Shown piece by piece: positions 5,017-24,621 of a DNA stretch of 33,373 bases. The stretch's first letter is position 1. Each line of letters starts with the position of its first letter. Made by a program: the position numbers and the translations under genes. The notes under the pieces are model-generated. The model had not been told where the DNA came from. It searched no databases and worked only from the letters and a program-made list of their open reading frames with translations. The stretch is from contig CAMORO010000023.1 in assembly GCA_946623875.1 (NCBI GenBank), positions 1-33,373 of the forward strand. The letters are read 5' to 3'. This stretch comes from an uncultured Lachnospiraceae bacterium. Lineage in GTDB: Bacteria > Bacillota > Clostridia > Lachnospirales > Lachnospiraceae.

Positions 5017-6540
5017 CTATTCGTATTTACGTTTTGACCCGAAAAGACTGTTAAGATCAAAGCAGCGCACATTTGTCCACGAGCGGTTGATCCTCTCATT
5101 GCTCTCGTCATCGAAGCAGGCCATTACCACAGCCCGGTCAAGTACTGACATCGGAGGATACTGTGCAAACAACTGTCTGTCGAGCTGATTCTCTGTAGTT
5201 ATAACGGAATATTTCTTATTCGCCTCATCCGTATCTGCTTCAAAGAAATACCCGATCTCACTATATTCAACAAGCTCAGCATCTTCTTCATGAGTCTCTT
5301 CTTCCTGAGGATCATCCTCCGAAGCATCAGCAGCGGTCTCCTCATCTTCTGCCTCTTCTTCATCCTCAGCCGCATAACACCAGTTAAGGTAGTCAAATAC
5401 AGTATCCGAGTCACCCCCCGATATAACTGAGGTATACCCGATATAATACATATTTCTGACAACATTCTCCGGCTTACTTAAGTAATTCACAAAGGCTTCG
5501 GCCACATGCTGCTTCCGTGTATCCTGTTCTATCCCGCTCTTTAACATCACCCAGCCGTCAAACCACAGGTTGGTGCATTCCTGTGGTACTGCATAACACA
5601 GCTCAACTCCGTCTTCCTCAGCCTGATCCAGAGTATATACCGCATCTCCGGACCATTGTTCATTGGCAACAACCTTACCGGTTACCATGTCGGCCTTACC
5701 GCTGTCCGTCTCAAATGAATAGACATTATCCTTGGCGTTGGCCAATATATCCTCAATACTGTTAACGGTATCGACATCCGTACTGTTTATGATCTGTGAA
5801 AGCCTTTCATGATAATCGGGTGAATTAATGAATTCATCAGAAGTTATCTCATCATAAAAATGCACTCCCGCAGCCGCGAAGAACGCATCCCTCACACTGT
5901 CCTTAATGGTGATCCTCCGGTAATAATCCCTGTTAAGCAGGATATTCCAGTGTGAGGCTTCCTCCTTTGTTACCTCATCCGGATTATATACGAACCCGAG
6001 TGTACCCCACATATATCCTGCCGCATACTTCGATAACGGCTCTCCCTCTATTGAAAGATCGTCAAATACAGACCGGATATATGGCGAAACCCCGTTCTCG
6101 TAGTAATTGTTTTCATCATAAGCATTTCGAAAATCAGACGAATACGGTACAAGCATGCCCTCGCGCATCAGCTTCATGATCATGTATTCCGACGGGCAGA
6201 CCACATCATAAACATCTCCTATGGTAAGCTGATTGTACAGATCCTCATTGGTACCGAAGGTAGAGTACTCAACCTTAACCTGCACGCCGTAGGTTTCCAG
6301 GTACCAATCCTCAAAATCATTTATAAGGTTATTTCTGCCGATTATTTCAGTTCCGTCATCAAGCTCAATAAGTTCATCCTCGCCCCAGTCGCCCTCGTCG
6401 ATATACTCCTCCCAATTACTCACCCTGAGTGTTATCACATCGGATTTATTCCCGGAGCATCCGCCAAGACAGGTTATCATGACTGCACAGGCAATAATAC
6501 AGGTGACGGCAATGCGGCCAGGCAGCTTTCCTCCTCTCAT
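5017..6540 (-). CDS. potD: Spermidine/putrescine-type solute-binding lipoprotein with acidic insert
   Basis: A 507-residue extracellular substrate-binding protein of the polyamine ABC transporter. It has a lipoprotein signal with lipobox LGGC (lipidated Cys28). The PotD-like opening (SNWEEYID, about 41-48) and a DVVCPSEYMI segment (about 112-121) match the family. PotD proteins are normally near 350 residues. The extra length includes an acidic, low-complexity stretch at about 391-426, rich in Glu and Asp, inserted before the C-terminal part of the fold. The start ATG overlaps the potC stop by four bases (ATGA), and it is the last gene of potABCD. Polyamine specificity is inferred from the operon and overall similarity, not from checked binding residues. 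Confidence 0.9.
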   Translation of the reverse strand: MRGGKLPGRIAVTCIIACAVMITCLGGCSGNKSDVITLRVSNWEEYIDEGDWGEDELIELDDGTEIIGRNNLINDFEDWYLETYGVQVKVEYSTFGTNEDLYNQLTIGDVYDVVCPSEYMIMKLMREGMLVPYSSDFRNAYDENNYYENGVSPYIRSVFDDLSIEGEPLSKYAAGYMWGTLGFVYNPDEVTKEEASHWNILLNRDYYRRITIKDSVRDAFFAAAGVHFYDEITSDEFINSPDYHERLSQIINSTDVDTVNSIEDILANAKDNVYSFETDSGKADMVTGKVVANEQWSGDAVYTLDQAEEDGVELCYAVPQECTNLWFDGWVMLKSGIEQDTRKQHVAEAFVNYLSKPENVVRNMYYIGYTSVISGGDSDTVFDYLNWCYAAEDEEEAEDEETAADASEDDPQEEETHEEDAELVEYSEIGYFFEADTDEANKKYSVITTENQLDRQLFAQYPPMSVLDRAVVMACFDDESNERINRSWTNVRCFDLNSLFGSKRKYE

Positions 6541-7337
6541 ACCTCATCACCCCCATCCTCTTCTTCGTTTGCCCTCAGATTTGATACCATTACGACACCG
6601 ACAACTATAACAAACATAACTGCGGACAATGCCCACAGGGCTGTCTTGATCGAGGTATGCGCTCCTCGTGTGGCATTTACGACATATGTGCTGATAGTAT
6701 CGAAAGTAGCCGGTTTGGTATATGTTGCTATGAAATAATCGTCAAGTGAAAGAGTTATCGCGGTCAGGAAGCCCGATACTATTCCGGGTTTTATCTGAGG
6801 AAGCACGACCTTTCTTAATGCAAGAGCCGGATCGCATCCCAGATCCAGTGCTGCCTCATACAGTGAATTGTCCATCATCTTAAGCCTTGGCATTACCGAG
6901 AGATAAACAAAGGGTGTACAAAGAGCTGTCTGAGCTACCACCAGCGGTATATATGTATCCTTATCCAAATGCAGGAGCACGATCATGAAGATACAGATGG
7001 AAAAACCCGTCACAACATCTGCGTTGACCACGGGAATCTGGTTCAGCACCTCAATGGTTCCGCGAAATCCCTTTCTGCTGTAGAACGAGCCTATGGCTCC
7101 TATCGTGCCAAGCACAACCGAAATGCATGCAACAACGACAGCCAGTGACACAGTTCCGAACATCATCTCAAGAAGTTCAGGCTCGGTAAACAGAGTCACG
7201 TAATTCTGTAAAGAAAAACCCCTTACAGCACCTATCATTGTGGACTCGGTAAAACTGTAGAATGTCAGTATCAGTATAGGCAAATAAAGGAAGGCAAGCA
7301 CCAGCCATATCACAATATGCTGTCCATATTTTTTCAT
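6537..7337 (-). CDS. potC: Polyamine ABC transporter permease PotC
   Basis: An inner-membrane permease of about 266 residues with six predicted hydrophobic segments. The ABC-permease coupling loop (EAA motif) is visible as YEAALDLG followed by the conserved Gly-rich turn, about residues 160-187. I start it at the ATG at 7337, which sits 7 nt behind a strong GGAGGAGG site. A TTG six bases earlier would leave almost no spacing. With this start potC begins 2 bp after the potB stop, and it overlaps potD by four bases. It pairs with PotB to form the translocation channel energised by PotA. Confidence 0.95.
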   Translation of the reverse strand: MKKYGQHIVIWLVLAFLYLPILILTFYSFTESTMIGAVRGFSLQNYVTLFTEPELLEMMFGTVSLAVVVACISVVLGTIGAIGSFYSRKGFRGTIEVLNQIPVVNADVVTGFSICIFMIVLLHLDKDTYIPLVVAQTALCTPFVYLSVMPRLKMMDNSLYEAALDLGCDPALALRKVVLPQIKPGIVSGFLTAITLSLDDYFIATYTKPATFDTISTYVVNATRGAHTSIKTALWALSAVMFVIVVGVVMVSNLRANEEEDGGDEV

Positions 7338-7339
7338 AG

Positions 7340-8119
7340 TCAAGCCTCCTCCTTTGTCATTATCTTATCGGTGATTATCGTGAACAGACCGATGAACATC
7401 AGCAGTATAGCCGATATTATGGAACCATTGTTCCAATCGTAGGCATTGAAATAACTTCCTATAAGGCTTCCCATTATATATGTGCTGTTGTAGACCATAT
7501 CCAAAACAACGTAATTGGTCATCGCAGGCAGAAATACCATGGTTATACCGCTTACAATTCCGGGAATTGACAACGGAAGCACTATCTTAAGCATCACCTG
7601 CGGAAAGGTCGCCCCAAGGTCATGTCCGGCCTCGATCATCGATTTATCAAGCTTGGTAAGTGCATTAAACAGCGGCATGATCATAAAAGGCAGGAAATCA
7701 TACACCATGCATATGACCGTATTCACAAAAGGATAATAGGCAAGATTACCCTCGATAAGTGTGAGTATTTCCTTAAGCGCCGTGATCCTGAGCGTAAAAT
7801 TGATCCACATCGGAAGCACAAATACCATCAGGAACGAATGCCTGCGTGCATACCGGCCTTTGGCAAGAATATAGGCCACGGGATATGCAAGTATCAGACA
7901 GATAACCGTTACAAATACCGCGATCACCAGCGAATACACAAGCGTACCCATTGTTCTGCCGTTTGTAAAAAACAACACAAAATTAGTGAAAGAAATATTA
8001 CCCTCTTCATCGGTAAAACCATAGTACAGTACCACCAGAAGAGGCATCACCACAAAAAGGATCAGATATATGAAGTAGGGAAACGCCAACTGTTTCCTGT
8101 CAAACCATGATCTTTTCAC
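7340..8119 (-). CDS. potB: Polyamine ABC transporter permease PotB
   Basis: A 259-residue permease with a hydrophobic N-terminal helix (about 13-34) and five further membrane segments. The EAA coupling loop reads IEAGHDLGATFPQV (about 162-175). It starts with GTG at 8119, behind GAGGAAGC, and the start overlaps the potA stop by four bases (GTGA), a sign of translational coupling. It is the partner of PotC in the heterodimeric channel. Confidence 0.95.
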   Translation of the reverse strand: MKRSWFDRKQLAFPYFIYLILFVVMPLLVVLYYGFTDEEGNISFTNFVLFFTNGRTMGTLVYSLVIAVFVTVICLILAYPVAYILAKGRYARRHSFLMVFVLPMWINFTLRITALKEILTLIEGNLAYYPFVNTVICMVYDFLPFMIMPLFNALTKLDKSMIEAGHDLGATFPQVMLKIVLPLSIPGIVSGITMVFLPAMTNYVVLDMVYNSTYIMGSLIGSYFNAYDWNNGSIISAILLMFIGLFTIITDKIMTKEEA

Positions 8120-9579
8120 GCTTCCTCTTCCTCCTTGATCCTGAACTTCATCTTCGCCTTAGGAATAAGAACACTGACCTTATCACCCTGATTCCACAGA
8201 TCCTCGTCATCAACCACGTAATCAATCTCACTGTCCGTCCTTATCGTATAACTGTAATGGTCACCGATGTAATAGAACGACACGATCTTACCGACAACAT
8301 CACCGGCTTTGTCATCATCGGACATTTCGGCATATTCCGGACTGAAGAAAGCAACAACCTTCTTCCCCTGATAATCAATTGCCGTTCCGTTTTCATCAAC
8401 CAGTTTGCCCTTTGATACCCTGGAATCCGGAAACAGCTTATGAGCATCAACAAAAAACGCAAAATCCCTGAACACAAGATACAGTCCTCTTCCGTCCGAA
8501 AAACCGTCAATGACGCCTTCGTAATTATTTATGGTCATATCGTAAGGAATGATATGTATATCGTCCGGGAGTATATGAAGCCCCACAGTGGTTCCGGGCT
8601 TGTAATGCGAAAGACAGTGTACCTCCATCTCATACTGCCCGCACTGTACAAAGGTTATGTAGAAGGTGCCCTTGAAATCAGCGCTTGTCACCTCTCCCGT
8701 GAGCTGTCCCTCACCCGGTTTTACAACGGAAACATCCTCAGGCCTTATCACAGCCTCGATCTTCTTACCGTTTTCGTAATCATCCACGCACTCAAACTGC
8801 GCACCCGCAAAGGATGCCTTCATCTTCCCTGTCATAACACCGTTAAATATGTTACTCTCGCCTATGAAGTCGGCAACAAATACATTGGCAGGCTCGTTGT
8901 ATATCTCCTCGGGAGTTCCCACCTGCTGTACCTTGCCGTCGGCGATAACGACTATCTTGTCGGACATTGTAAGAGCTTCTTCCTGATCATGCGTAACAAA
9001 AATAAAGGTTATTCCGAGACGCTTATGCATGTTCTTAAGCTCCAACTGCATCTCCTTACGCATCTTGTAATCGAGCGCACTTAAAGACTCATCAAGAAGC
9101 AACACCCTCGGTTCGTTTACAACAGCACGTGCTATCGCTATACGCTGCTGCTGCCCGCCGGACAGAGTCGTAATGCTCCTCTTTTCAAAACCTTCAAGAT
9201 CAACCAACTCAAGCACGTCTGAAACCTTCTTATCTATTTCCCCTTTCGGGATCTGTTTAAGCTTCAGTCCGAATGCTATATTGTCATACACATTAAGATG
9301 CGGAAACAGCGCATACTTCTGAAACACGGTATTTACCGGCCTCTCATTTGGCGCAAGCATGGAAATATCACTGTCATCAAGCAGTATCTCACCCGCAGTA
9401 GGCTTGTCAAAACCTCCTATCATCCTGAGTATTGTCGTCTTGCCGCAGCCCGACGGACCGAGCAGTGTAACGAACTCACCCTCATTGATATCAAGGCTCA
9501 GATCCTCTATGACATTGGTTTTCCCGTCATATGACTTACTTACATTATTAAGCCTTATTATAGTTTTAGCTTCAGCCAT
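8116..9579 (-). CDS. potA: Polyamine ABC transporter ATPase PotA with extended C-terminus
   Basis: A cytoplasmic ATPase driving polyamine uptake. Visible motifs: Walker A GPSGCGKT (41-48), Q-loop Gln87, signature LSGGQQQR (139-146), Walker B VLLLDES (159-165) and H-loop His197 in THDQEEA. After the ATPase domain comes a TOBE-like regulatory region (about 275-345, with VIRPEDV). At 487 residues it is about 110 longer than usual PotA (about 350-380). The additional part (about 350-480) ends in a second TOBE-like stretch (YIGDHYSYTIRT, then VSVLIPKAK). First gene of potABCD, with a good ribosome site (GAGGAAAACAAG). The leader contains a terminator-like hairpin, so regulated read-through is possible. 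Confidence 0.95.
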   Translation of the reverse strand: MAEAKTIIRLNNVSKSYDGKTNVIEDLSLDINEGEFVTLLGPSGCGKTTILRMIGGFDKPTAGEILLDDSDISMLAPNERPVNTVFQKYALFPHLNVYDNIAFGLKLKQIPKGEIDKKVSDVLELVDLEGFEKRSITTLSGGQQQRIAIARAVVNEPRVLLLDESLSALDYKMRKEMQLELKNMHKRLGITFIFVTHDQEEALTMSDKIVVIADGKVQQVGTPEEIYNEPANVFVADFIGESNIFNGVMTGKMKASFAGAQFECVDDYENGKKIEAVIRPEDVSVVKPGEGQLTGEVTSADFKGTFYITFVQCGQYEMEVHCLSHYKPGTTVGLHILPDDIHIIPYDMTINNYEGVIDGFSDGRGLYLVFRDFAFFVDAHKLFPDSRVSKGKLVDENGTAIDYQGKKVVAFFSPEYAEMSDDDKAGDVVGKIVSFYYIGDHYSYTIRTDSEIDYVVDDEDLWNQGDKVSVLIPKAKMKFRIKEEEEA

Positions 9580-13600: not shown

Positions 13601-13828
13601 CGCCTTATCGTCCGCATACTCGCTCCTTAAGTTCTTTATGCCTCTGTACCTGCCGCTCACCGTCCCGTAAAGCGCATAACAGATGGCATCAAAGATCATG
13701 GTCTTTCCCGCACCCGTATCACCGGATATCAGGAACAGACCCTTTTCCTCAAATTGTTCGAAATCTATATCAGGCATTCTTCCCGCATAAGGACCGAAGG
13801 CACTGATGATAAGCTTAACCGGCTTCAT
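10649..13828 (-). CDS. sbcC: SbcC, ATPase subunit of the SbcCD DNA nuclease
   Basis: A 1059-residue SMC-like protein that, with SbcD, opens and trims hairpins and blocked DNA ends. It has an N-terminal ATPase half with Walker A GDTGAGKT (36-43), long heptad-rich coiled coils (about 180-525 and 550-900), a zinc hook CPVC (Cys532, Cys535) at the apex, and a C-terminal ATPase half with signature LSGGES (962-967), Walker B ALFIDEG (Asp997, Glu998) and His1030 in the following HRDE. The length is normal for the family. The ATG at 13828 lies inside the end of sbcD (14-bp overlap), which indicates coupling. Confidence 0.97.
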   Translation of the reverse strand: MKPVKLIISAFGPYAGRMPDIDFEQFEEKGLFLISGDTGAGKTMIFDAICYALYGTVSGRYRGIKNLRSEYADDKADSFVDFYFTHAGKPYHVLRKPSYERINRNGKLTEEPEKVVLYYPDGRTEEGKTRVNAAINELLHVDARQFMQIAMIAQNEFLSLLNSNTEKRTEILRTIFRTDEFKNIESILSEKMKNARALKEKNENSIVQYFADVIPTGDYELKEELKTLQDNASETGSVYNLNEINDIVVKLIRWDELKQMKDAKELKKAEDEFDSNNKMLAIAEMNNQAIEKLKMLEEERKELDAAKFEMRDLKSRLKKQRIAVSEVYPHYLTWKHKSEDVERTERDIEAKKKSFIKLNDEARETAEKLLEEEKKLPDAEKLKKKADKIRDNKDRYELRDQLNEELAGIEEEALKYAEQYTELEMKEKELKEKIKELTQKADDLKDKPEELVKTKAEGEKLLILYDSIRTLVEKDICAREDKVEELKDRQDVYEEARKDFDVSSEARKNAEKMLENSRAGILAKLLVEGEKCPVCGSTHHPDPATLPDDMITEEKLDELRKDEEEKEKIKNEALTAAESVKSALEQMEEHLKSDMKDCIKDPMFGYEDETDDIDVLIERTVKAKDILVDEYDRNEKLIKEIEEACVELEETRENLKKSTETELTALTDEMKEVDEKRKLKDMEITARRATLKTLEDLKYPDWENARDKMLRLDVEAAEILDSIEKAREKKEAAEVTATTVSTEIKTLTDQLREMSSEDEKLRKKLNEVLKDKGFSTIREVLDHIEDVEEIDRKQERVDKFMQDDAANLKLLEQARKDAEGKEDVDIKRLRIMVDAMGRSVEAKRKDMNEMEYRLKINRDKQVHITELKQGFERAAKDYTICDRLYKLVSGQTRGGKITLEQYVQAEGFDRIIAAANRRLLPMSDHQYELRRREEAVDRRSNTYLDLEVIDNYTGHTRPVGDLSGGESFKASLSLALGLSDTVSSSLGGIQMDALFIDEGFGTLDKKSINNAMEILVELSGINKLVGIISHRDELKEAIGQQIKVSKSRKGSWYTIETGS

Positions 13829-15086
13829 TCAACACACCCGCTTCCTTTGCCACCTCTTTGATCACTCTCAACTCTCCGCTGGATATATTACATCCGTACA
13901 TCATCCCGTAAAACTCGGAAACCAGCTCGTCAAAGGACTTGTTTTTAATACTTACATCAAAATCACTCTGTTCAATGCTCCTTGTATGCGAATTGTCATA
14001 GTCGAGCTTAAGGGTATAAGGATAGAACTGCCTGAAGATGTTCATCGCATCATTCTGCACCTCTTCGTCAGTGAGAGTTACATAGATATAGTCCTTGGGC
14101 GACATAATGCTCTCTCTCTTAAGAAGCTGGAGCATGGGCCCCTTAATATGCCTCAGATCCCTCAGCGGTTCAAGCGGTATGAGATCGATATGGGTATCGC
14201 CCTTCTCTCCCATGGTCACAAGCGGAACCGACTTCACATTGTTCACTTCGCTTATGGAATACTTGAGAGGAGATCCGGCATACCTTATCTCATTCCGGTT
14301 CACCCTCTGGGGTGAATGTATATGTCCCAGCGCAACATAATCAAAATCATCAAACAGATCACAGCCTATCTTCTCGACCGTGCCGACCATATGTGTTGCC
14401 ACACTCTCGGAACCGGCCAGCGCAGGATCTGACGTATGCCCCACCACGAACTGATGTGCAACGAGTATATTCCGCCTTGTCTTGTCTATATTCGCATGTT
14501 CCAGTATGACACGCACGGCATCCTCATATGTCGTGATATCATCATCGGGATAGAAGGTCTTAACCTGCGACGCCTTCACATACGGCAGCAGATATATGTC
14601 AACATCCCCGTAGCAGTCTGTAACAGTCTGCTTGTACAGCCTGCCTTCATACCTTGAACTGATAAATACCTTACTGCTCTTAAACAGGGCACTTCCGTAA
14701 CCGATCCTCTCCTCCGAATCATGATTGCCGCCGATTATGAATGTCTTAACCTTAAGCTCAACAAGCTTGTTAAGGAAATCATCCATGAGCCTTACCGCCG
14801 CTTCCGAAGGCACGGCACGGTCGTAGACATCACCGGCAACAACCACCGCATCCACCTCCCGATCCTCAATTATCTTGATGATACGCGACAGGATATACCT
14901 CTGATCATCAATAAGATCCATATCGCAAAGGTATCTTCCCAGATGAAGATCGGCCAGATGCAGAAAGGAAAAAGTCTTACTTACAAGATAGACATCCTTA
15001 CATTTGGTACACTTTATCTTCTTACCTGTCCCCTTAACCTTGAACTTGCGGTTACACTTGGGACAAACATACATTGAATAATCCAT
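13815..15086 (-). CDS. sbcD: SbcD nuclease subunit with an N-terminal zinc-ribbon-like extension
   Basis: The Mre11-type metallo-phosphoesterase subunit of SbcCD. I start it at the ATG at 15086, behind AGAGG with 7-nt spacing; an ATG seven codons upstream has only a weak site. In the numbering from that upstream ATG, the catalytic motifs are HLADLHLG (Asp53, His55), GDVYD (Asp93), GGNHD (Asn128, His129), His218 in VAHQ, and GHIH (262-264). SbcD proteins usually begin just before the first motif. This one carries about 40 extra residues holding two Cys pairs, CPKC and CTKC, 14 residues apart, typical of a zinc ribbon. It overlaps sbcC by 14 bp. Confidence 0.96.
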   Translation of the reverse strand: MDYSMYVCPKCNRKFKVKGTGKKIKCTKCKDVYLVSKTFSFLHLADLHLGRYLCDMDLIDDQRYILSRIIKIIEDREVDAVVVAGDVYDRAVPSEAAVRLMDDFLNKLVELKVKTFIIGGNHDSEERIGYGSALFKSSKVFISSRYEGRLYKQTVTDCYGDVDIYLLPYVKASQVKTFYPDDDITTYEDAVRVILEHANIDKTRRNILVAHQFVVGHTSDPALAGSESVATHMVGTVEKIGCDLFDDFDYVALGHIHSPQRVNRNEIRYAGSPLKYSISEVNNVKSVPLVTMGEKGDTHIDLIPLEPLRDLRHIKGPMLQLLKRESIMSPKDYIYVTLTDEEVQNDAMNIFRQFYPYTLKLDYDNSHTRSIEQSDFDVSIKNKSFDELVSEFYGMMYGCNISSGELRVIKEVAKEAGVLNEAG

Positions 15087-15158
15087 GGCGTTCCTCTGAT
15101 CATACAAATGAAAACCTGTCTCATCGCAGGATCTTTATGTATTTCTTACATATCTAAC

Positions 15159-15187
15159 AGTATATACGAATTTGTCCATTCTGACAA
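15159..15187 (-). promoter_or_regulatory. Sigma-A-type promoter for sbcDC
   Basis: On the minus strand TTGTCA is separated by 17 bp from TATACT, about 70 bp upstream of the sbcD start, in the divergent region shared with glgA. The -35 end overlaps a perfect 7-bp dyad (ATTTGTC at 15170-15176, GACAAAT at 15183-15189). Confidence 0.6.
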
Positions 15188-15258
15188 ATATAGTATGGTA
15201 ATTTTAGCGTATTTTTGTTACAATTATTGACAGTGGTATAAAGTATTGGAGGAATCAT

Positions 15259-16701
15259 ATGAAGAAAATATTATTTGTAGCATCCGAGTGTGTTCCGTTT
15301 ATTAAAACAGGCGGTCTGGCGGACGTTGTGGGCTCACTTCCCCAGTGTCTTGACAAGAGATATTTCGACTGTCGTGTTGTTATCCCCAAATATATGTGTA
15401 TATCACAGGAATACAGGGATAAGATGGAATATGTCGGTCACTTCTACATGGATATGGATAACAAGACCCTGTATGTGGGCATCATGAAGCTCGAATATCA
15501 GGGCATAACCTACTATTTCGTTGACAATGAGCACTATTTCTCAGGCCCCAAGCCTTATGGAGATATCTTATGGGATATTGAGAAGTTCTGCTTTTTCTGC
15601 AAGGCTGCACTGTCAATCCTTCCGGTTGTCGGTTTCCAGCCCGACGTGGTTCACTGCCACGACTGGCAGACGGGTCTCATCCCGGTTTTCCTTAAAGAGA
15701 GGTTCCATGAGGGTGAATTCTTCCGCAATATGAAGTCCATCATGACGATCCACAACCTTAAGTTCCAGGGCAAGTGGGATGTCAAGACCATCAAGGCATA
15801 TTCAGGGCTTCCGGATTACTATTTCACTCCGGACAAGCTCGAATCATACAAGGATGCCAACATGCTTAAGGGCGGTATCGTATTTGCCGATGCCATTACT
15901 ACCGTAAGTGTTACATATGCCGAGGAGATCAAAACACCTTTCTACGGCGAGGGTCTCGACGGCCTGCTGAAGGCAAGGAGCGACAGTCTCCGCGGTATCG
16001 TTAACGGCATTGATTACACCGACTACAATCCAACTACGGACAAGTTCATATCATTCCCTTATGATGCGCGTGATTTCCGCAAGGAGAAGCTCAAGAACAA
16101 ACGGGCTCTGCAGGAGGAATTGGGACTTGATAAGGACGACAAGAAATTCATGCTCGGTATCGTAAGCCGTCTTACCGATCAGAAGGGCTTCGACCTCATC
16201 GCCTACATAATGGATGAACTGTGTCAGATGGATCTTCAGGTTGTCATCCTCGGTACAGGCGAGGAACGCTACGAGAACATGTTCAGACATTTCGACTGGA
16301 AATACGGCAACAAGGTTTCAGCCAACATCTATTACTCCGAGGGTCTCTCTCACAAGATCTACGCCGGTGCGGATGCTTTCCTGATGCCGTCACTGTTCGA
16401 ACCCTGTGGTCTGTCACAGATCATGGCCCTGCGTTACGGCACTATCCCGATCGTTCGTGAGACAGGCGGCCTTAAGGATACGGTTGAACCCTACAACCAG
16501 TACGAGAGCACGGGAACAGGCTTCTCATTCGTCAACTACAATGCGCATGAGATGCTGGGTACCATCCGCTACGCATACGATGTGTACACCAATCACCGCC
16601 GCGAATGGAACAAGATGATCGACCGCGCAATGGCCAAGGACTTCTCCTGGAGCGTAAGTGCACTTCGTTATCAGGAAATGTACGACTGGCTGATCGGCTG
16701 A
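15259..16701 (+). CDS. glgA: Glycogen synthase (ADP-glucose, GT5 family)
   Basis: A 480-residue starch/glycogen synthase that adds glucose from ADP-glucose to alpha-1,4-glucan. The family hallmark KTGGLAD is at 16-22, HDWQTGL at 134-140, the donor-site Arg304/Lys309 in SRLTDQKG, and the C-terminal catalytic motif EPCGLSQ at 381-387. Length and motif spacing are normal. The ATG at 15259 follows a strong ribosome site (TTGGAGGAATCAT). It is the only plus-strand gene recognised here, a single-gene unit divergent from sbcD and closed by its own terminator. No other glg genes are nearby. Confidence 0.97.
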   Translation: MKKILFVASECVPFIKTGGLADVVGSLPQCLDKRYFDCRVVIPKYMCISQEYRDKMEYVGHFYMDMDNKTLYVGIMKLEYQGITYYFVDNEHYFSGPKPYGDILWDIEKFCFFCKAALSILPVVGFQPDVVHCHDWQTGLIPVFLKERFHEGEFFRNMKSIMTIHNLKFQGKWDVKTIKAYSGLPDYYFTPDKLESYKDANMLKGGIVFADAITTVSVTYAEEIKTPFYGEGLDGLLKARSDSLRGIVNGIDYTDYNPTTDKFISFPYDARDFRKEKLKNKRALQEELGLDKDDKKFMLGIVSRLTDQKGFDLIAYIMDELCQMDLQVVILGTGEERYENMFRHFDWKYGNKVSANIYYSEGLSHKIYAGADAFLMPSLFEPCGLSQIMALRYGTIPIVRETGGLKDTVEPYNQYESTGTGFSFVNYNAHEMLGTIRYAYDVYTNHRREWNKMIDRAMAKDFSWSVSALRYQEMYDWLIG

Positions 16702-16749
16702 CAAGTCAGGGCTGTGTATTGTACAGATACAAATATCAGACATAAATAT

Positions 16750-16784
16750 GCCCCGGGGAGCGCATACACTCACCGGGGCTTTTC
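16750..16784 (+). terminator. Intrinsic terminator of glgA
   Basis: A 7-bp G+C stem, GCCCCGG (16750-16756) with CCGGGGC (16773-16779), runs into TTTT. It lies 48 bp after the glgA stop, between two convergent genes. Confidence 0.85.
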
Positions 16785-16829
16785 TGTACTTTCAATTTGT
16801 TGACACTCACACATTTACAATTATCCATC

Positions 16830-18218
16830 TCACAGATCTGCCTTTACAATTTCCATAAGGGCTCTGCTCGCACTGTTACCGTTCATTTCACGAACAATAC
16901 GGTTAGCCTGATTGGAAATCACCTGTTCGAAATAATTACGTACGGAACGGGCATTTCCGAAATTCTCTCCCTCATAATATCTGAGCTGTGATATACGCTC
17001 CGCAATATATTGATACAAAGCGGGATCCACTTCATAATCCTGACCCCTGCAATACTTTAAGAATATCTGTGTAAGCTCTTCATCCGAATAGTCATTGAAA
17101 TAAACATATTTATTGAACCTGGATTTCAGTCCCGGATTGGAATTGATGAAGCGTTCCATAAGCTCGGGATAACCCGCAACTATGACAACCAGCCGTTCCC
17201 GGTTATCCTCCATAAGCTTGAGCAGAGTGTCTATGGCTTCCTGTCCGTAATCACCCTCGCGTTCACTCACGAGCGTATAAGCCTCATCTATGAACAGAAC
17301 ACCGTCCAGGGCCGACTCCACCACTTCACGTACCTTCTGTGCGGTCTGCCCCATGTAGCCTGCTACCATTCCCGCCCTATCGGTTTCAATAAGATGTCCT
17401 TTATTCAGAATACCGAGCGACCGGTATGCCTGCGCCATTTCACGGGCGATGGTGGTCTTCCCCGTCCCGGGATTACCCGAAAAAACCATATGGCGCGATA
17501 TCTCGGCGGACTTTAGCCCTCTGCTCTGCCTTGCCTTCTGCACCATCATGAGGTTGACCATATCATGAACTTCCTTCTTGACACCGTGCAGTCCGATAAG
17601 GGAATCAACCTCGGCAAGTATCTCGTTGACATCCTTTTTCTCTGCACTGTCCGCATATGGATCAGGTGCTTCACCGTCCATTTCTATGCGAACGCGCCTC
17701 TGTCTGTTGCCATCGCCGTTTATAAGCTCATCATTCTCTTCTATCCTGCCGATGTACTCAAGACACATATTGTAGAAATGTTCAAGCAGCATAACCGAAT
17801 ATCTGAGTCTTGCACCGTCACAGTTGATGATAAGCTTGCCTATGAGGAGAAAGGTATCCAGTACCTCCCTTGTACTTACAAGATAGCATTTGCCCCCCAT
17901 ATTCGCATCCTTTTCACCCTTCGCGATCATCTGAATGCTCTGCGGGACGTTGCGTATTATCGAATCCTCACCGATAACATCCGAACCATAGCTGTCCTTA
18001 AGCATCTCTTCATCAACAAGTATCCTGAAGATAACATTTATTGTCATGATCTCCGCATCGGAAAACTTCCCGTCACTACAGCCCAGAAAATATGCCATGT
18101 TCAGCGCGTCGGACCTCAATATGTTATACAGTTGATCCTCATCATTATTATTTATTTCGCTGCCGTACATCGTACAGATATTACGGCATTTTTCAAGCGC
18201 CTCAATAACCGGCTCCAT
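16830..18218 (-). CDS. CbxX/CfxQ-type AAA+ ATPase with TerB-like N-terminal domain
   Basis: About 462 residues from the ATG at 18218, which follows AGGGGAGA; a TTG six codons upstream lies across that site and is less likely. In numbering from the TTG, the C-terminal half is a CbxX/CfxQ (SpoVK-like) AAA+ domain: Walker A GNPGTGKT (254-261), pore-loop GYMGQT (about 293-298), Walker B with Asp317/Glu318 in LFIDEAYTL, and Arg430 near the sensor-2 position. The N-terminal part (about 8-165) is helical and contains [10 protein letters not shown], resembling the acidic loop of TerB-like domains; this is suggestive, not certain. A charged linker (about 170-205) joins the two. It ends the operon that encodes the VWA lipoprotein, so a remodelling role for that complex is plausible. 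Confidence 0.9.
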
Positions 18219-18275
18219 ATTTCTCCCCTGACTCAATTATATTTACGGCTACAGACGGTAACTATTTTGCAGTTA

Positions 18276-19934
18276 CTATAGATTTACATTAAACAGGTTT
18301 CTGAGTACATTGCTTACGTCCGAGCTGTCCGCCTTGATCTGGGCAGCTTCATTGATATTTGAAAGATCCTCAAGCTCGGATATATCACTGTAATTGTACG
18401 CTATCGTATACACGGGTATACCGAGTCCGCCGACAACATCATCCACGCGGTCGTATTTGTATCCGTTGTTCTGCTCACCGTCTGTCAGCAGAAAAAGCAT
18501 AAGCTTGGCATCCGGAATGTTCTTTTCCGCTTCCTTAAGCATATTCATTCCGACAAGAAGCGCATCATACGTAGCTGTGGAACCGCCTGCATTGAGGCTC
18601 TTGACTTCTCCGGCGAAATATGCCCTCTGAGTAGCGTCAAACTGTGCCACAGGAAGATTGACGGTAACATCATCCGAGTAGCTGACAAGACCTATATAAT
18701 GCTCCTGCCCGATATACGGCGAAGCGGCTATCAAGGATTCCTTCAGCGAATTGAGCGGTTCGCCGTTCATCGAACCGGAAATATCGGCAACAAATACGGC
18801 AGCTATCGGACGTCCGCCGTTCTTATTCTGCTTCCATACCTTCTGGGCAGCCAGATAGTCCCTTCCGTCCATTCCGGTATCCTGCGCTTCGTATTCATTG
18901 TGAAGGTTGAAGCCCTTTCTGGAAGCAAGTGTCTGCGACTGTTCGGACAGGCAGTACTTAACGAACTCATCAACGGCTTCCCTCTCTTCCTGCCCGGTCC
19001 AATCAAATACATATACCGGGTGATCATGCCTTATTCCTACGGGAGTATAGATGTAGTTCTTAAGCTCCGGAGTGTTTATATATGCCTGCTCCTCCATGAC
19101 CATTGCATTGATAACTCCCTTAGCCGCCTGATTCCTGAGCACGGCCGTTGTATAGGCAACAGGCGGTGATTTCTTCTGATACTCAAGCAGGGCCTGTGTA
19201 GCGGCATCCGACAGAGGATCGTTCTCATCAAAGGATGCAAGCATGGCACACAGAACGTTAAGACCCGTTGAGCTGGTATATGGATTGGTGTAGGCAAATA
19301 CCAGATCTCCCTCATTTGCGGCCGTCAGAACATTCTTGACCGTAACTTCCTTATACTTGGTGATAAAGTCATCATAGACGCTTTTCTTGATAAGTATTCC
19401 GGCAGTATTTCCGGCTATCCTGTCTGCGACCCTCGTCGTTTCATAACCGGAAGCATCTAGCATCTTCCCCCATGCCTCGTTACTCGGGATAAACGCGTCC
19501 GGAGCATACCTGTCGTTCAGGATATAGGTCACCACCTCTCCGGAGGTGATCTTTCTTACAGATACCGATACCGACTTGTTATTGACCTTGTGATTCTCGC
19601 TGTTGAACTTCCTTGCAACCTCATTCAGCCAGTCATCGGGCGCATCGGCCGACAGCTCGGTAGCCGCCGCTATCTCCACATCAATACTTCCGTTGCCCTG
19701 AACCGTTATGGGGAAGGTATCGATGTCCGCCAAAGCATCCGCTTCCGATATTTCGTCCGAATAAATGTCGAGTACGGGATCCTTCTTTGTGGTAACGTCA
19801 ACCTTTGTCAAAAGGCTGGCCATCTCCTTCGCGGCATCCTCTTCCGACAGTGTTTTCTTACGACCTTCACTTCTTACTCCGCATCCTGCAAGAAGCAGTG
19901 TTATACACAATGTTATCGCAATGATCCTTTTCAT
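18276..19934 (-). CDS. Lipoprotein with solute-binding-like and von Willebrand A domains
   Basis: A 552-residue surface lipoprotein: signal peptide with lipobox LLAGC (Cys18), then a segment resembling bacterial solute-binding proteins (about 80-345, with PDAFIPSNEAW and DLVFAYTNPYTSSTGLN), then a VWA domain (about 375-552). The metal site of the VWA domain looks complete: DISGS (Asp384, Ser386, Ser388), Thr in GGSTATYD (453-455) and Asp485 in LLTDGEQ. Such VWA domains bind protein ligands through a divalent cation. Its start overlaps the stop of the two-TM gene by four bases. The AAA+ gene follows after 57 bp. Transport is not implied, as no ABC permease is nearby. Confidence 0.92.
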   Translation of the reverse strand: MKRIIAITLCITLLLAGCGVRSEGRKKTLSEEDAAKEMASLLTKVDVTTKKDPVLDIYSDEISEADALADIDTFPITVQGNGSIDVEIAAATELSADAPDDWLNEVARKFNSENHKVNNKSVSVSVRKITSGEVVTYILNDRYAPDAFIPSNEAWGKMLDASGYETTRVADRIAGNTAGILIKKSVYDDFITKYKEVTVKNVLTAANEGDLVFAYTNPYTSSTGLNVLCAMLASFDENDPLSDAATQALLEYQKKSPPVAYTTAVLRNQAAKGVINAMVMEEQAYINTPELKNYIYTPVGIRHDHPVYVFDWTGQEEREAVDEFVKYCLSEQSQTLASRKGFNLHNEYEAQDTGMDGRDYLAAQKVWKQNKNGGRPIAAVFVADISGSMNGEPLNSLKESLIAASPYIGQEHYIGLVSYSDDVTVNLPVAQFDATQRAYFAGEVKSLNAGGSTATYDALLVGMNMLKEAEKNIPDAKLMLFLLTDGEQNNGYKYDRVDDVVGGLGIPVYTIAYNYSDISELEDLSNINEAAQIKADSSDVSNVLRNLFNVNL

Positions 19935-20674
19935 AATCTTACAGCTCCTTCCTCCTGACTTATCTGATGGGTTATGGCATCCCTGTACATACTTATCTCC
20001 TCTTCACAATTCTGCTCTCCCTGTCTGTTAAGCAGATCAACCAGTGAATTCATAAAGTTCTTGGTAAGCTCAAGCAGCTTCTGGTTGTTGCCGGCGCATG
20101 CAACACCCTCTTCAAGCAGCGCAGTCCTGTCAGCACTGTTCCTCTCGTCAAGAATAGTCATACGGTTCAACAGCTTACGCACATTACGGCACATATGCTG
20201 CTCCACATGATCCAGAAGCTCCTCTGTATCCCTGAGGGCATCCGCACCGTTATCATCAAGCAGTGTCTTAAGCTTCTGCTGAAGCTCATCCATAACCCTC
20301 ATCGTGGTGAGCACCAGACCCAGCATCTTCCTTATATCTTCATCGCCCGTTTTATGTAGATTGCTCTCAACATTATCCTGAAGCTGCTTCGGTGACAAAC
20401 GCCCGTCTACATTAAGGACAGGCGTATGATGTTCGGATTTGGTTGGCTTCGGTTTCGCCTTTAAGCTTTTGATACAGTTAATGATAAGAGCCGCACCCGA
20501 TGCTGCGAGCGCCGCGCCAAAGACGCCAAGCAGTGCCCTGTATCCGAATAACCTGAAATAGATCACGATATCATTCCTGAATGCAAACACCATAAGCTCC
20601 AGAAGCGCCGAGGCGGCCACACACGGTATAAGAATCCTGTTCTTCACTGTAATTTCCTTCCGGTCATTAGTCAT
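19931..20674 (-). CDS. Two-TM membrane protein with long cytoplasmic helical region
   Basis: A 247-residue protein. Two hydrophobic helices (about 13-32 and 42-66) are followed by a Lys/Pro-rich linker and about 165 mostly helical residues with heptad character (DELQQKLKTLLDD and later). The layout vaguely recalls XpaC-like proteins, but I saw no defining motif and make no family call. The ATG at 20674 follows GGTGGAT. It lies 40 bp after the coiled-coil gene and overlaps the VWA lipoprotein by four bases, so the three are surely one transcription unit. It could anchor or link the cytoplasmic AAA+ protein and the surface lipoprotein; that is inference. Confidence 0.85.
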   Translation of the reverse strand: MTNDRKEITVKNRILIPCVAASALLELMVFAFRNDIVIYFRLFGYRALLGVFGAALAASGAALIINCIKSLKAKPKPTKSEHHTPVLNVDGRLSPKQLQDNVESNLHKTGDEDIRKMLGLVLTTMRVMDELQQKLKTLLDDNGADALRDTEELLDHVEQHMCRNVRKLLNRMTILDERNSADRTALLEEGVACAGNNQKLLELTKNFMNSLVDLLNRQGEQNCEEEISMYRDAITHQISQEEGAVRL

Positions 20675-20714
20675 AAGGGATCCACCGCCTTATGACTGTT
20701 CTCAACTTTCATAA

Positions 20715-21086
20715 TCACATAATCTGCTTTACACTACCAAGCTTACTGTAAGATTCCGACAGCGAATCCTTTATATTCCTTAATTCATTACGATCCCGTT
20801 CAAGCACGGATATCTGTTGTTCCAATACGGCCACTGTTATGTCCGCATCCTTCATAAGCCTGTCATCCGCCTTCACATCTTCTATTAGGGAACGGATACG
20901 CTCCGTCTGTTTGGTTATCCTATCCTCAAGATAACCAATACGCGGTATATACAGCGGAAACTGTGAGTGCTGTTCCTTTTTAACGCTCTCCCGGATATCG
21001 CTTATCAGCCTTGACACAGCTTCCGCTATCGACAGTACCTGTGTCGGGCATTTATTTATTTCCTCAATCTTTGGATCAACAAACAC
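20715..21086 (-). CDS. Small coiled-coil protein of unknown function
   Basis: A 123-residue soluble protein, GTG start at 21086 behind an excellent ribosome site (AGGAGGATATC). Two predicted helical stretches (about 17-38 and 50-115) contain regular hydrophobic heptads, as in VAVLEQQISVLERDRNELRN. There is no signal peptide, membrane segment or catalytic motif. First gene of the four-gene module. A terminator after nrdR separates it from the upstream unit, so it should have its own promoter between 21087 and 21189. The best -10 candidate there is GATAAT, but no good -35 was found. Confidence 0.8.
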   Translation of the reverse strand: MFVDPKIEEINKCPTQVLSIAEAVSRLISDIRESVKKEQHSQFPLYIPRIGYLEDRITKQTERIRSLIEDVKADDRLMKDADITVAVLEQQISVLERDRNELRNIKDSLSESYSKLGSVKQIM

Positions 21087-21189
21087 GATATCCTCCTAAT
21101 ACATTATCATGCATCCATAACATAATCAAGCAATTGACGAGTTAACGGACTTAATCGACTTAATGTCGGCGATTAACTGTTCAATAATG

Positions 21190-21230
21190 AAAAATGCCGA
21201 TATCAGGGTTACTCTCCCGTCATACCGGCA
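21190..21230 (-). terminator. Intrinsic terminator of nrdR
   Basis: On the minus strand TGCCG and CGGCA (21226-21230 with 21195-21199) close a stem with further inner pairs (TAT/ATA and GGG/CCC), followed by TTTTT. It lies about 55 bp after the nrdR stop. Confidence 0.75.
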
Positions 21231-21285
21231 CTTTCCTAATCTGCCACAAACAAGCCGTCAAATGCGTCAAATCACACCAAGATAC

Positions 21286-21735
21286 TCAGTTAAGTACCTT
21301 CTTAAGCTCATCCATGAAGGTATTTATATCCTTAAACTCACGATATACCGATGCAAACCTTACGTATGCAACAGCATCAAGATCCTTAAGCTTGTTCATT
21401 ACAAGCTCGCCTATAACATCACTGGGGATCTCCTTATCCTCGTAGTTAAACACCTCTGTCTCCACCTCATCCACCAGTTGTGTTATCGACGATGCGGGTA
21501 CAGGACGCTTATGGCAGGCCCTGAGTACTCCGGCCTCGATCTTCGACCTGTCGTAGGTCTCCCTGTTGTTATCCTTCTTGATAACAATAAGCGGGATGGT
21601 CTCGATCTTCTCGTAAGTGGTGAAACGCTTATCGCATTCATCACATACTCTCCTGCGCCTTATCGAATTGTTGTCTTCGGCAGGACGGCTGTCAATAACT
21701 CTGGTGTTTTCATAACCGCAAAACGGACATTTCAT
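21286..21735 (-). CDS. nrdR: Ribonucleotide reductase transcriptional repressor NrdR
   Basis: A 149-residue zinc-finger and ATP-cone repressor that senses dATP/ATP and controls ribonucleotide reductase genes. The zinc site is complete: Cys3, Cys6, Cys31 and Cys34. A basic stretch (IRRRR, 25-29) lies between the Cys pairs, and the ATP-cone covers about 47-137. The length is typical. The ATG at 21735 follows AGGGGAAAG. A perfect 8-bp inverted repeat lies 33-58 bp upstream and may be an operator. Close linkage of nrdR to division genes is seen in other Clostridia. Confidence 0.97.
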   Translation of the reverse strand: MKCPFCGYENTRVIDSRPAEDNNSIRRRRVCDECDKRFTTYEKIETIPLIVIKKDNNRETYDRSKIEAGVLRACHKRPVPASSITQLVDEVETEVFNYEDKEIPSDVIGELVMNKLKDLDAVAYVRFASVYREFKDINTFMDELKKVLN

Positions 21736-21767
21736 ATTTCTTTCCCCTCTTCTTATTATTTTGCATA

Positions 21768-21793
21768 TATGGTGTTTCCCTTAAGACACCATA
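21768..21793. promoter_or_regulatory. 8-bp inverted repeat upstream of nrdR
   Basis: TATGGTGT (21768-21775) and ACACCATA (21786-21793) form a perfect dyad with a 10-bp spacer, between the 98-aa gene and nrdR. The half sites resemble halves of NrdR boxes (ACAC..ATATAT), but the arrangement differs from the usual two-box array. It may be an operator or an RNA hairpin; there is no T-tract. Confidence 0.45.
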
Positions 21794-21817
21794 CTAAATA
21801 TACCGTATTGAAAATAA

Positions 21818-22114
21818 TTATGTCAACCCCTTATGAGAAGAATATTTAAAAGTCTCATGCATATCATTAAGATACGCGATAACATCATTGTAACCGTCCA
21901 CGGTAAACGGAAAACGCTGTACTGTCTTCTGCTCATCCGGGGTTATTTCATAGCAGAACGGTTCCGGCCATGTATCAACCCTGAACTTATCCGTATCATC
22001 CTCATCGGCCGCAGCCTCCTTAATGATCCTGTACCGCATCCCTTCACAGCTTCCGGTAAAGGGCTTCCCCTTCCTGTAATGGTCGAATGAAAGTATCGTA
22101 TTGTGATCTATCAT
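21818..22114 (-). CDS. Small conserved-looking protein of unknown function
   Basis: A 98-residue soluble protein. The ATG at 22114 follows a purine-rich site (GGGACGGGATTATTA). The segment HYRKGKPFTGSCEGMRYRI near the N-terminus and TWPEPFCYEITPDE in the middle have the ungapped, aromatic-rich look of a conserved family. I believe similar small proteins occur widely in Clostridia, but I cannot name the family or give a function. It lies between the ftsZ terminator and nrdR, in the same direction, and may be co-transcribed with nrdR. Confidence 0.75.
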   Translation of the reverse strand: MIDHNTILSFDHYRKGKPFTGSCEGMRYRIIKEAAADEDDTDKFRVDTWPEPFCYEITPDEQKTVQRFPFTVDGYNDVIAYLNDMHETFKYSSHKGLT

Positions 22115-22209
22115 TAATAATCCCGTCCCTTCTCAACTGCGTATTATGTCATCTATCCAACATGGATCACCGTATGCAGGCATCCGTTCGCCCGTCTGTA
22201 TCAGACCGT

Positions 22210-22250
22210 AAAATACACTAAGACCGGACAGCCTGCCATCCGGTCTTAGT
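22210..22250 (-). terminator. Intrinsic terminator of ftsZ and end of the dcw cluster
   Basis: A perfect 12-bp stem, ACTAAGACCGGA (22217-22228) with TCCGGTCTTAGT (22239-22250), has a 10-nt loop and, on the minus strand, is followed by GTATTTTA. It begins 29 bp after the ftsZ stop. Confidence 0.85.
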
Positions 22251-22279
22251 AAACACTTATCTTTATTTAACATAATTAC

Positions 22280-23758
22280 CTATTTCTTCAGGAAATCAGG
22301 TATCTTGATCTGTCTTGATTCAACCCTGCTGGTCAGTGGAGATACACCTCTCAGTCCTCCGCCGAAAGTTGTCGGCTCGGGAGTGGGACCTGTGTTCTGA
22401 TTAACGCCCGGCATCGGCTGAACCTGCATTGTTCCGGTATTCTGATTTACTCCGGGATTCATTCCCATCTGCTGTGTATTCTGGAAATTGTAAGGTGCCG
22501 TTGCACCTAACCCCTGCTGGGCTCCAAACTGATTACCCGGCATTCCCATCGTGTTCTGTGTAACACCCATTCCTGTATTCATAGGTGCTGTCATTCCACC
22601 AACCTGCTGATTGATAACTCCCGTATTCATCGGAGAAGTCATACCGGGAGTAACCGGTGTCTGCATGGGCTGTGTATTCTGCAATCCCAAACCTGTATTT
22701 GCGGATACGAACTGTCTCTGCTGATAAGCCTTGGAACCCGTGAAGTTCCTCATACCGCCGCCTGTCAAGCTCTGACCTGCCGTCCTCGCATCCTGCTTGG
22801 GTATCCTGTTTTCATCTATTCCTGTAGCGATAACGGTAACGGCACATGAATCCGGATCCCTGTCATCGTATGTAGCACCGAATATTACGTTTACATCTTC
22901 ACCGGTAAGATCACTTACAAAGGATACTGCGTCATTGGCATCAAGCAGTGTGATATCACCGGATACATTAACGATAACGTGGCTTGCACCCTGTATGGTT
23001 GTCTCAAGGAGAGGACTGTTAACTGCCTGCTTAACCGCTTCGATGGCCTTGTCATCACCCTTGGCAGCACCGATACCGATATGAGCGATTCCCTTGTTCT
23101 CCATTACGGTCTTAACATCCGCAAAGTCAAGGTTAATGAGTGAAGGAACATTTATAAGGTCTGTTATGCCGCGTACCGACTGCTGAAGGACTTCATCGGC
23201 AAGCTTAAGAGCCTCGGGCATCGTCGTCCTTCTGTCAACAAGCTCAAGCAGCTTGTCATTGGGTATAACTATCAGTGTATCTACGTTCTGTTTAAGCTTC
23301 TCAATACCCCCGAGAGCATTCTGCATACGTGTTCTTGCTTCAAACCTGAAAGGCTTCGTTACAACTCCGACCGTAAGAGCACCCTGCTCCTTGGCCAGTC
23401 TTGCGATCACGGGAGCTGCACCTGTTCCGGTACCACCGCCCATTCCGCATGTTACAAACACCATATGTGCACCGCGGATCGCATTTGCTATATCTTCTGC
23501 ACTCTCTTCGGCTGCCTTCTCGCCTATTTCGGGCTGTGCACCGCATCCGAGTCCCTGTGTAAGCTTGTCACCTATCTGAAGAAGCCTCGGTGACTTACAC
23601 AGTTGAAGTGCCTGTTTATCGGTATTAACGCCGAGGAATTCGACACCTACGATCTGTTCCTCAACCATTCTGTTAACTGCATTATTTCCTGCTCCGCCTA
23701 CTCCTACTACCAGTATCTTGGCCGCGGATTCCATTATATCAGTTTTAATTTCCAGCAA
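22280..23758 (-). CDS. ftsZ: Cell-division GTPase FtsZ with long Gln/Asn/Met-rich linker
   Basis: The tubulin-like GTPase that forms the division ring. The globular part (about 10-318) has the signature GGGTGTG (107-113) and the synergy-loop NLDFADV (209-215). The end carries the conserved partner-binding peptide [11 protein letters not shown]. Between them is an unusually long linker (about 320-478), rich in Gln, Asn, Met, Gly, Pro and Thr, with repeats of PGVNQNTG and PMNTG. Total length is 492 residues, against roughly 350-420 usual. I use the TTG at 23758, because GGGAGGGG lies 8 nt upstream; the ATG eight codons later has no ribosome site. A promoter and terminator flank it, so it can be expressed alone. 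Confidence 0.97.
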
Positions 23759-23803
23759 GATGATGCCCCTCCCTTTTTATAGATTGCTCCACACTCATAT
23801 ACA

Positions 23804-23832
23804 ATAATATAATTATTTTATTAAATTATCAA
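23804..23832 (-). promoter_or_regulatory. Strong sigma-A-type promoter for ftsZ
   Basis: On the minus strand TTGATA, 17 bp, TATTAT; five or six matches to consensus in each box and ideal spacing. It predicts a start near 23797 and a leader of about 40 nt before the TTG start codon. Confidence 0.8.
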
Positions 23833-23865
23833 TAGTTTTTTTCGCTTATATAGGAGTTTTTCGCT

Positions 23866-24621
23866 CTAATCCTTGGAAAAAGTGAACTTATCTCCTTCTC
23901 CGGCGTAATTCTCCATATGAAGTACTCCGGGGTAGTCCGGTAACTCGGGAAGTATAAACCTTAACCTGTTTATCTTCTCATCGATATTATCGCTGTTGCC
24001 AAGGAATACACGCACCTGCCCGAAATACAGGGTGATGTTGTAATTGTTATCAAAATATATCCTGTCAATATCTATCTTATATTTGGTCAGAAGCTGTGTG
24101 ATATCAAGGATAAGCCTGAAGATATCCTCTTTCTCCACGGGAAGCTTCTCATGAAGAGTGATATAGTTAAAGTCAAGCCCCGTCACAAACGGAATACCTT
24201 CCATCTGCCTCGTCGAGCTCTCAACAACAATCCCGTCCTTGTCAAAATACAGATAATGTCCGAGATATTCAACATAACCGGCCACTGCCTTCTCATACAC
24301 ACGTATCTTGACCTCCGTGGGAGACAGAAGCTCAACATCCATCTTCTCGACAAAAGGAACCTCATCCACACCGGCGAACCTGCATTTCAGATACAGATAT
24401 ATCGAATTGTGACCGTATTTACCGTTAAGAACGTAGTCCTCGATCTCATCGGCACTGTAATGTTCGTTTCCGGTAATATCCACACTTGTTATGGTGAACT
24501 TTGTCTTTATAACGAGAATACCCACGCACACCAGTACAAGAGCACTCAGAAAAACAATAAGAAATACCGTCCCTTTCTTCACGTCGGAACCGCCGGAAAC
24601 AGCCGAATAATCAGTCGCCAT
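23866..24621 (-). CDS. divIB: Cell-division protein DivIB/FtsQ
   Basis: A 251-residue bitopic division protein, started at the ATG at 24621 behind GAGGAATTGTGT. A longer frame reaching 24681 would overlap ftsW and lacks a better site. One membrane helix (about 17-39) is followed by a POTRA domain (about 42-110, TITSVDITGNEHYSADEI) and a beta-rich extracellular domain. It works with the FtsL-like and DivIC-type proteins to activate septal peptidoglycan synthesis. It begins 10 bp after the ftsW stop. Short acidic N-terminus, no large cytoplasmic extension. Confidence 0.93.
   Translation of the reverse strand: MATDYSAVSGGSDVKKGTVFLIVFLSALVLVCVGILVIKTKFTITSVDITGNEHYSADEIEDYVLNGKYGHNSIYLYLKCRFAGVDEVPFVEKMDVELLSPTEVKIRVYEKAVAGYVEYLGHYLYFDKDGIVVESSTRQMEGIPFVTGLDFNYITLHEKLPVEKEDIFRLILDITQLLTKYKIDIDRIYFDNNYNITLYFGQVRVFLGNSDNIDEKINRLRFILPELPDYPGVLHMENYAGEGDKFTFSKD

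Follow-up and report, generated by a model that had tools for sequence, protein, structure and literature searches.

Resistance to tellurite, to nisin and to other antimicrobials that act on the envelope has been linked to TelA and XpaC, two widespread bacterial proteins. In the closest described systems, the XpaC-TelA/YaaN operons (PF10112 and PF05816; xpaC-yaaN of Bacillus subtilis, lmo1966-lmo1967 of Listeria monocytogenes), an XpaC-type helical membrane protein is encoded beside TelA. A passage of PMC3498285 places xpaC-yaaN in the core SigW regulon of B. subtilis, and part of PMC10269926 reports that a liaR mutation in Enterococcus faecium raises xpaC approximately 7-fold. As cited in a 2026 paper (PMC12791056), a telA mutant of L. 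monocytogenes shows higher susceptibility to nisin and tellurite; according to that paper, the mechanism of the Listeria TelA is not known. A section of a review (PMC7824862) treats TelA as a component of the sub-membrane structures of Ter systems. Here we describe a group of genes in a 33,373-nucleotide stretch of DNA (contig CAMORO010000023.1, hereafter the window) from an uncultured Lachnospiraceae bacterium whose assembly holds 2.8 Mb in 155 contigs. The genes are referred to as A (coiled-coil protein), B (protein with two transmembrane, TM, segments), C (lipoprotein with a solute-binding protein domain and a VWA domain, SBP-VWA) and D (AAA+ ATPase). We propose that the products of A-B-C work as a module of three proteins across the envelope and represent a variant of the TelA/XpaC-type systems for envelope stress (resistance to toxic anions or cationic antimicrobials), and we give this proposal about an even chance of being right. 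The connection to TelA and XpaC was absent from an earlier note on this DNA, which had joined all four genes into one module.

The relatives of C delimit the group. A scan of a contig collection with a profile of C yielded 520 relatives, and the best 80 of them (57-97% identity) entered the analysis; the named contigs carrying the nearest relatives of the window are from Lachnospiraceae. B is encoded directly upstream of C in all 74 loci whose sequence extends 1.5 kb or more beyond C on that side (the testable loci), and it is seen in five of the six remaining ones, which lie near contig ends (less than 1.5 kb upstream). For each locus, the 3 kb upstream of C were scored with profiles of A, B and TelA. 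Over the 9084 open reading frames (ORFs) of the 80 loci, profile matches in the operon region and elsewhere numbered 39 and 0 for A, 80 and 1 for B, 27 and 1 for TelA, and 80 and 1 for C, the in-slot matches of A being partly so by construction, because its profile was grown iteratively on the upstream regions of the C loci. Median gaps are short: -4 bp between B and C (78 loci), -4 bp between A and B (35 loci) and 26 bp between TelA and B (25 loci). Full-length C occurs in 4 of the 37 genomes sampled from the genus (a fifth match covers only part of the VWA domain), and A-B-C are contiguous in all four. In the window's own genome (G000) and in a 97%-identical relative (G203, contig L099) they come after the ftsZ/nrdR region and before D; in two other genomes of the same genus, G218 and G206, they are found at another site, without D beside them. 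A, B and C stay together across different genomic contexts and are a conserved trio. No description of this gene combination was found by title or terms in the open-access literature.

Records labelled Candidatus Saccharibacteria also hold B-C operons (L147, with TelA; L141 and L142), a matter of lateral transfer or binning error.

The gene preceding B links the trio to TelA. Among the 74 testable loci, this position is taken by A in 39, by TelA in 27 and by neither, as judged by profile, in 8, while no locus has both. As A or TelA, never both, precedes B, A occupies the slot of TelA. In seven of the eight profile-negative slots there is a protein of 138-260 amino acids (aa) that looks helical by eye; the eighth (L117) encodes an unlike protein. 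On a quick tree of C, calculated without bootstrap, the slot states require 7 changes (2 for TelA and 5 for A), which points to few slot exchanges. The TelA-B-C operons of Ruminococcus and other Clostridia thus share with the window the B and C families and their order, but hold TelA instead of A before B; in the operon of the window TelA is missing and A stands in its place.

A match between B and TelA given by hhalign (98.8%) proved to be an artefact, since one row of the TelA alignment, that of L154, stems from an ORF extending into B, and the match was gone after removal of rows L154 and L163. In L154 (6010-8005), the TelA frame continues into the start of B, with the rest of B in another frame, which may be a fusion, a frameshift or an assembly error.

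The three proteins show a layout that would span the envelope. C (18276-19934, minus strand, 552 aa) carries a lipoprotein-type signal with an LAGC lipobox and matches the Pfam families SBP_bac_11 (6.7e-15; 55.9 bits against a cut-off of 25) and VWA (3.5e-15). Its class II solute-binding domain (residues ~82-374) is identified by this profile match above the cut-off and by a matching fold in model and fold matches, and is followed by the VWA domain (~375-549). The metal-binding motif of VWA domains (MIDAS, metal ion-dependent adhesion site) consists of DxSxS plus a Thr and an Asp residue; in C these residues (D384, S386, S388, T453 and D485) are invariant in 49 of 49 sequences, so that the domain is a VWA with MIDAS. 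B (19931-20674, minus strand, 247 aa) has hydrophobic segments at residues 14-32 and 47-65, near its N-terminus, giving two TM helices, and a helical domain that is presumably cytosolic; its residues N142, E158 and N170 are invariant in all 65 aligned sequences. A (20715-21086, minus strand, 123 aa; GTG start preceded by AGGAGG) is modelled by AlphaFold2 as three helices (predicted local distance difference test, pLDDT, 90.5) and is presumably a cytosolic helical (coiled-coil) protein. The description of a solute-binding-like/VWA lipoprotein and a two-TM protein in the earlier note is borne out by the Pfam matches, the lipoprotein-type signal and the two hydrophobic segments. Its envelope-spanning arrangement, with external lipoprotein, two-TM protein and cytosolic helical protein in a tight operon, agrees with the topology predicted here.

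According to the mechanism that we propose, C would be exposed on the outer face, where its solute-binding cleft would take a small ligand and its metal-dependent VWA domain would contact a protein or surface partner. B would relay the state of C through the membrane, and A, in place of TelA, would work with the cytosolic helical domain of B beneath the membrane, doing with B what TelA does in the sister operons. A TelA encoded elsewhere in the genome would probably take part. The role in stress is suggested by analogy, from the literature on TelA and XpaC. Tentatively, and with rather less than an even chance, this can be extended: the SBP-VWA lipoprotein, which occurs with XpaC-TelA, with B-TelA and with B-A, may be an overlooked extracellular sensor subunit of TelA-type envelope defence, and in a large group of Lachnospiraceae a small coiled-coil adaptor, unrelated to the cytosolic TelA of the operon, may have taken its place and may cooperate with a TelA from another site in the genome. 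The conserved external binding lipoprotein is a candidate for the ligand-sensing end of TelA/XpaC-type operons and, if the sensor reading is true, would define the first upstream ligand-sensing pathway for TelA. That a small coiled-coil protein can stand where TelA does elsewhere gives a hint of the task required of the cytosolic end.

More distant relatives place this architecture near TelA and XpaC as well. In 13 distant loci of the family (L035-L047; C at 39-44% identity), a two-TM helical protein is encoded before C in every case (in 12 loci by clustering, with one copy truncated at a contig end, and in L046 by eye), and TelA comes directly after C in six (by clustering; PF05816). This two-TM family aligns with B with a probability of 97%. 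In a separate lineage, seven of nine regions, chosen for XpaC or a weak C match and therefore not a random sample, have an SBP-VWA lipoprotein gene followed directly by XpaC, and in six of these seven TelA is found close downstream. A Variovorax plasmid encodes TelA two genes upstream of a "substrate-binding and VWA domain-containing protein", which shares its domains with C, judging by its name and its match, although only 63% of C is aligned, at 24.7% identity, and the other neighbours are unnamed. The likeness to the XpaC-TelA/YaaN operons lies in the TelA of the sister C operons and in the distant SBP-VWA genes adjoining XpaC, whereas the set of the window differs from them in including an external SBP-VWA lipoprotein and in that A and B have no profile match to TelA or XpaC. 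The window genome itself encodes an XpaC-TelA pair elsewhere (G000:C1), and TelA is encoded elsewhere in 30 of 33 A-type genomes (those of the window and of 32 of the 39 A-type loci), compared to 100 of 200 genomes drawn from the family (Fisher p 6e-6). Among the TelA-type genomes, 18 of the 27 were examined and all 18 have TelA, with a single match in 15.

As an observation on the XpaC regions, a protein of 351-381 aa is encoded after XpaC in L204, L205, L207, L210, L211 and L212, and in those of them that have TelA it lies between the two; NCBIfam gives no match for the copy of L204.

Several results weigh against the relationship to TelA/XpaC systems. No homology between A and TelA is detectable (hhalign gives a probability of 0.2-0.4%, first with 25 and later with 23 TelA proteins from the slot), A has no Pfam match and so does not belong to PF05816, and, apart from its 90% relative, it is very divergent, with 8-34% identity to the window copy. 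B likewise aligns with XpaC at only ~1% in hhalign and matches no Pfam family, PF10112 and BPD_transp_1 included. Because neither A nor B has detectable homology to TelA or XpaC, a function shared with these proteins rests on position. The Fisher p for the frequency of TelA in the A-type genomes, uncorrected for kinship and sampling, is too small, because the comparison uses related genomes from different sampling. Within the family draw, 13 of 18 C-carrying genomes have TelA compared to 87 of the 182 others (p 0.08), and the other five of the 18 are without it. Long relatives of C are also encoded at four loci on cyanobacterial plasmids, and in the three that were examined (all but H2) nothing nearby matches TelA, XpaC or B. 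Moreover, we know of no ligand, induction or phenotype for any operon of the A-B-C type.

Other functions may be considered for the trio. The solute-binding domain would fit an ATP-binding cassette (ABC) importer of the molybdate, sulfate or ferric type whose binding protein has gained a VWA domain, A and B being accessory proteins. This we hold to be unlikely: none of the adjacent genes in the window encodes a permease or an ABC ATPase, the ABC set at 5017-9579 comes with a binding protein of its own, the lack of a BPD_transp_1 match argues against B as permease, and no gene is conserved downstream of C, where the largest sequence cluster comprises 3 of 51 same-strand genes. The MIDAS residues kept in C, the fold match of its VWA domain to those of ITIH and CLCA, and the many host records that are rumen or gut metagenome-assembled genomes (by title) would suit a module for surface adhesion or cell-cell interaction, with a VWA domain that attaches to a partner from the host or the matrix and a solute-binding domain retained only for structure. 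Yet many invariant columns of C also fall in the solute-binding half, and the slot exchange with cytosolic TelA points to intracellular coupling, so that adhesion appears improbable too. A defence against phages or other mobile genetic elements, which has been suggested for Ter/TelA systems in conflicts with phages and plasmids, has a similarly small chance in our view. The section of the review mentioned above (PMC7824862) treats TelA and a vWA protein as entry-preventing components, and C is patchily distributed, being found at E 1e-40 in 5 of 299 genomes drawn from the phylum, its own included. However, C has no PADLOC match at E 1, A and B match there weakly (best 3.1e-4 and 0.036), and the match of D to the IetA ATPase (2.8e-11) is that of an AAA protein.

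The earlier note had assembled the four genes into a machine in which D would act through B on the other side of the membrane and remodel C, the VWA lipoprotein, as in MoxR-VWA pairs, and this we regard as very unlikely. It is true that D follows C on the same strand at 57 bp with no obvious terminator in the sequence, that this linkage is kept in the 97%-identical relative, and that SpoVK-clade proteins are described in part of PMC10659427 as dedicated chaperones, some with envelope-related targets. Nevertheless, D is beside C in just one of the 80 contig loci (L099) and in none of 17 family loci, with at least 1.5 kb downstream of C available in 66 of the 80 and the other 14 poorly suited to showing D; nothing like D adjoins A-B-C in G218 or G206. 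D-type N-terminal domains occur in 11 of the 37 genus and 12 of the 200 family genomes, and no B or C was found in 12 D regions lying outside the window. D lacks TM segments, while the VWA domain should be outside, and its ATPase is SpoVK/CbbX-like rather than MoxR-like. The conserved AAA+/VWA gene linkage typical of MoxR and chelatase systems is confined here to one lineage, and an AAA+/VWA remodelling pair was rejected as a general function because the linkage does not extend beyond two near-identical genomes. Thus, of the four genes proposed to be neighbours in related genomes, A-B-C are kept together and D is rarely with them, so that neither the four-gene module nor the AAA+/VWA partnership is supported. 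This correction matters, as the latter would have pointed experiments at the wrong partner.

Since D is linked to C only in the window and its 97%-identical relative, it is not a conserved part of the module; D is probably a separately acting chaperone of the SpoVK clade and a recent neighbour, accessory or incidental to A-B-C. The ORF of D spans 16830-18236 on the minus strand, and a start at the ATG at 18218 gives 16830-18218; this start has a ribosome site of the AGGGGAGAA type, and the same ORF start is found in the close relative in L082. D matches AAA (1.2e-19) and AAA_lid_6 (4.4e-14) in Pfam, and scores below the NCBIfam equivalog cut-offs of SpoVK, CbbX and EccA (275.5 of 422.95, 249.4 of 459.25 and 230.1 of 466.65 bits, respectively), none of which therefore includes it. 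The AAA+ core and lid are common to D and this clade, but D has an N-terminal domain of its own, with D49, G50 and E56 nearly invariant. This domain had been taken as TerB-like. Within its family, PF05099 is matched by two of 14 sequences, at best with E 0.011, but not by that of the window; PF05099 itself is matched in 2 of 60 family genomes, and the N-terminal profile finds no solved structure below E 0.036. From its sequence, the domain is at best weakly TerB-like. SpoVK is reported in a passage of PMC10659427 to activate MurG. If D contributes to the module, it may do so, by analogy, as a dedicated chaperone like SpoVK, for which its location near cell-wall genes is suggestive only.

The window genome also encodes a paralogue of D (L065 8934-10463, G000:C5), 60% identical over the N-terminal domain; its neighbours are EAL-phosphodiesterase-like and acetyltransferase-like genes on the upstream side and, downstream, a Clp-like gene of 859 aa. 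Two other relatives of D (L067 and L068) also adjoin EAL or GGDEF genes.

The four genes are tightly packed on the minus strand, as the earlier note had described, with gaps of 40 bp (A-B), -4 bp (B-C) and 57 bp (C-D, with the start of D at 18218). They come after an mraZ-mraW-PBP-mraY-ftsW-ftsQ-ftsZ cluster and nrdR (nrdR and ftsZ named from the sequence). The group is isolated on both sides, in agreement with that note. Between nrdR and A, 3' of the former and 5' of the latter, a terminator-like hairpin (21189-21236, minus strand; -25.3 kcal/mol by folding) runs into TTTTTC, and on the other side a convergent glgA ORF ends at 16701. The hairpin is absent from the output of a consensus terminator scan, probably because of its long loop. 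No Rfam match was obtained within 14000-24000.

Other genes of the window show features of their own. A 98-aa ORF between ftsZ and nrdR (21818-22114, minus strand), with no Pfam match, is kept in G203. At 839-3973 (minus strand), a 1044-aa protein combines 4Fe-4S, iron-only hydrogenase, histidine kinase, receiver and Hpt domains and resembles a sensor-hydrogenase-like hybrid kinase. SbcD (13815-15107) carries an N-terminal zinc-ribbon-like extension (YVCPKCNRKF..CTKC), and a similar ribbon opens a different protein of 608-624 aa encoded near A-B-C in G218 and G206 (L083 3373-5199 and L084 5782-7656).
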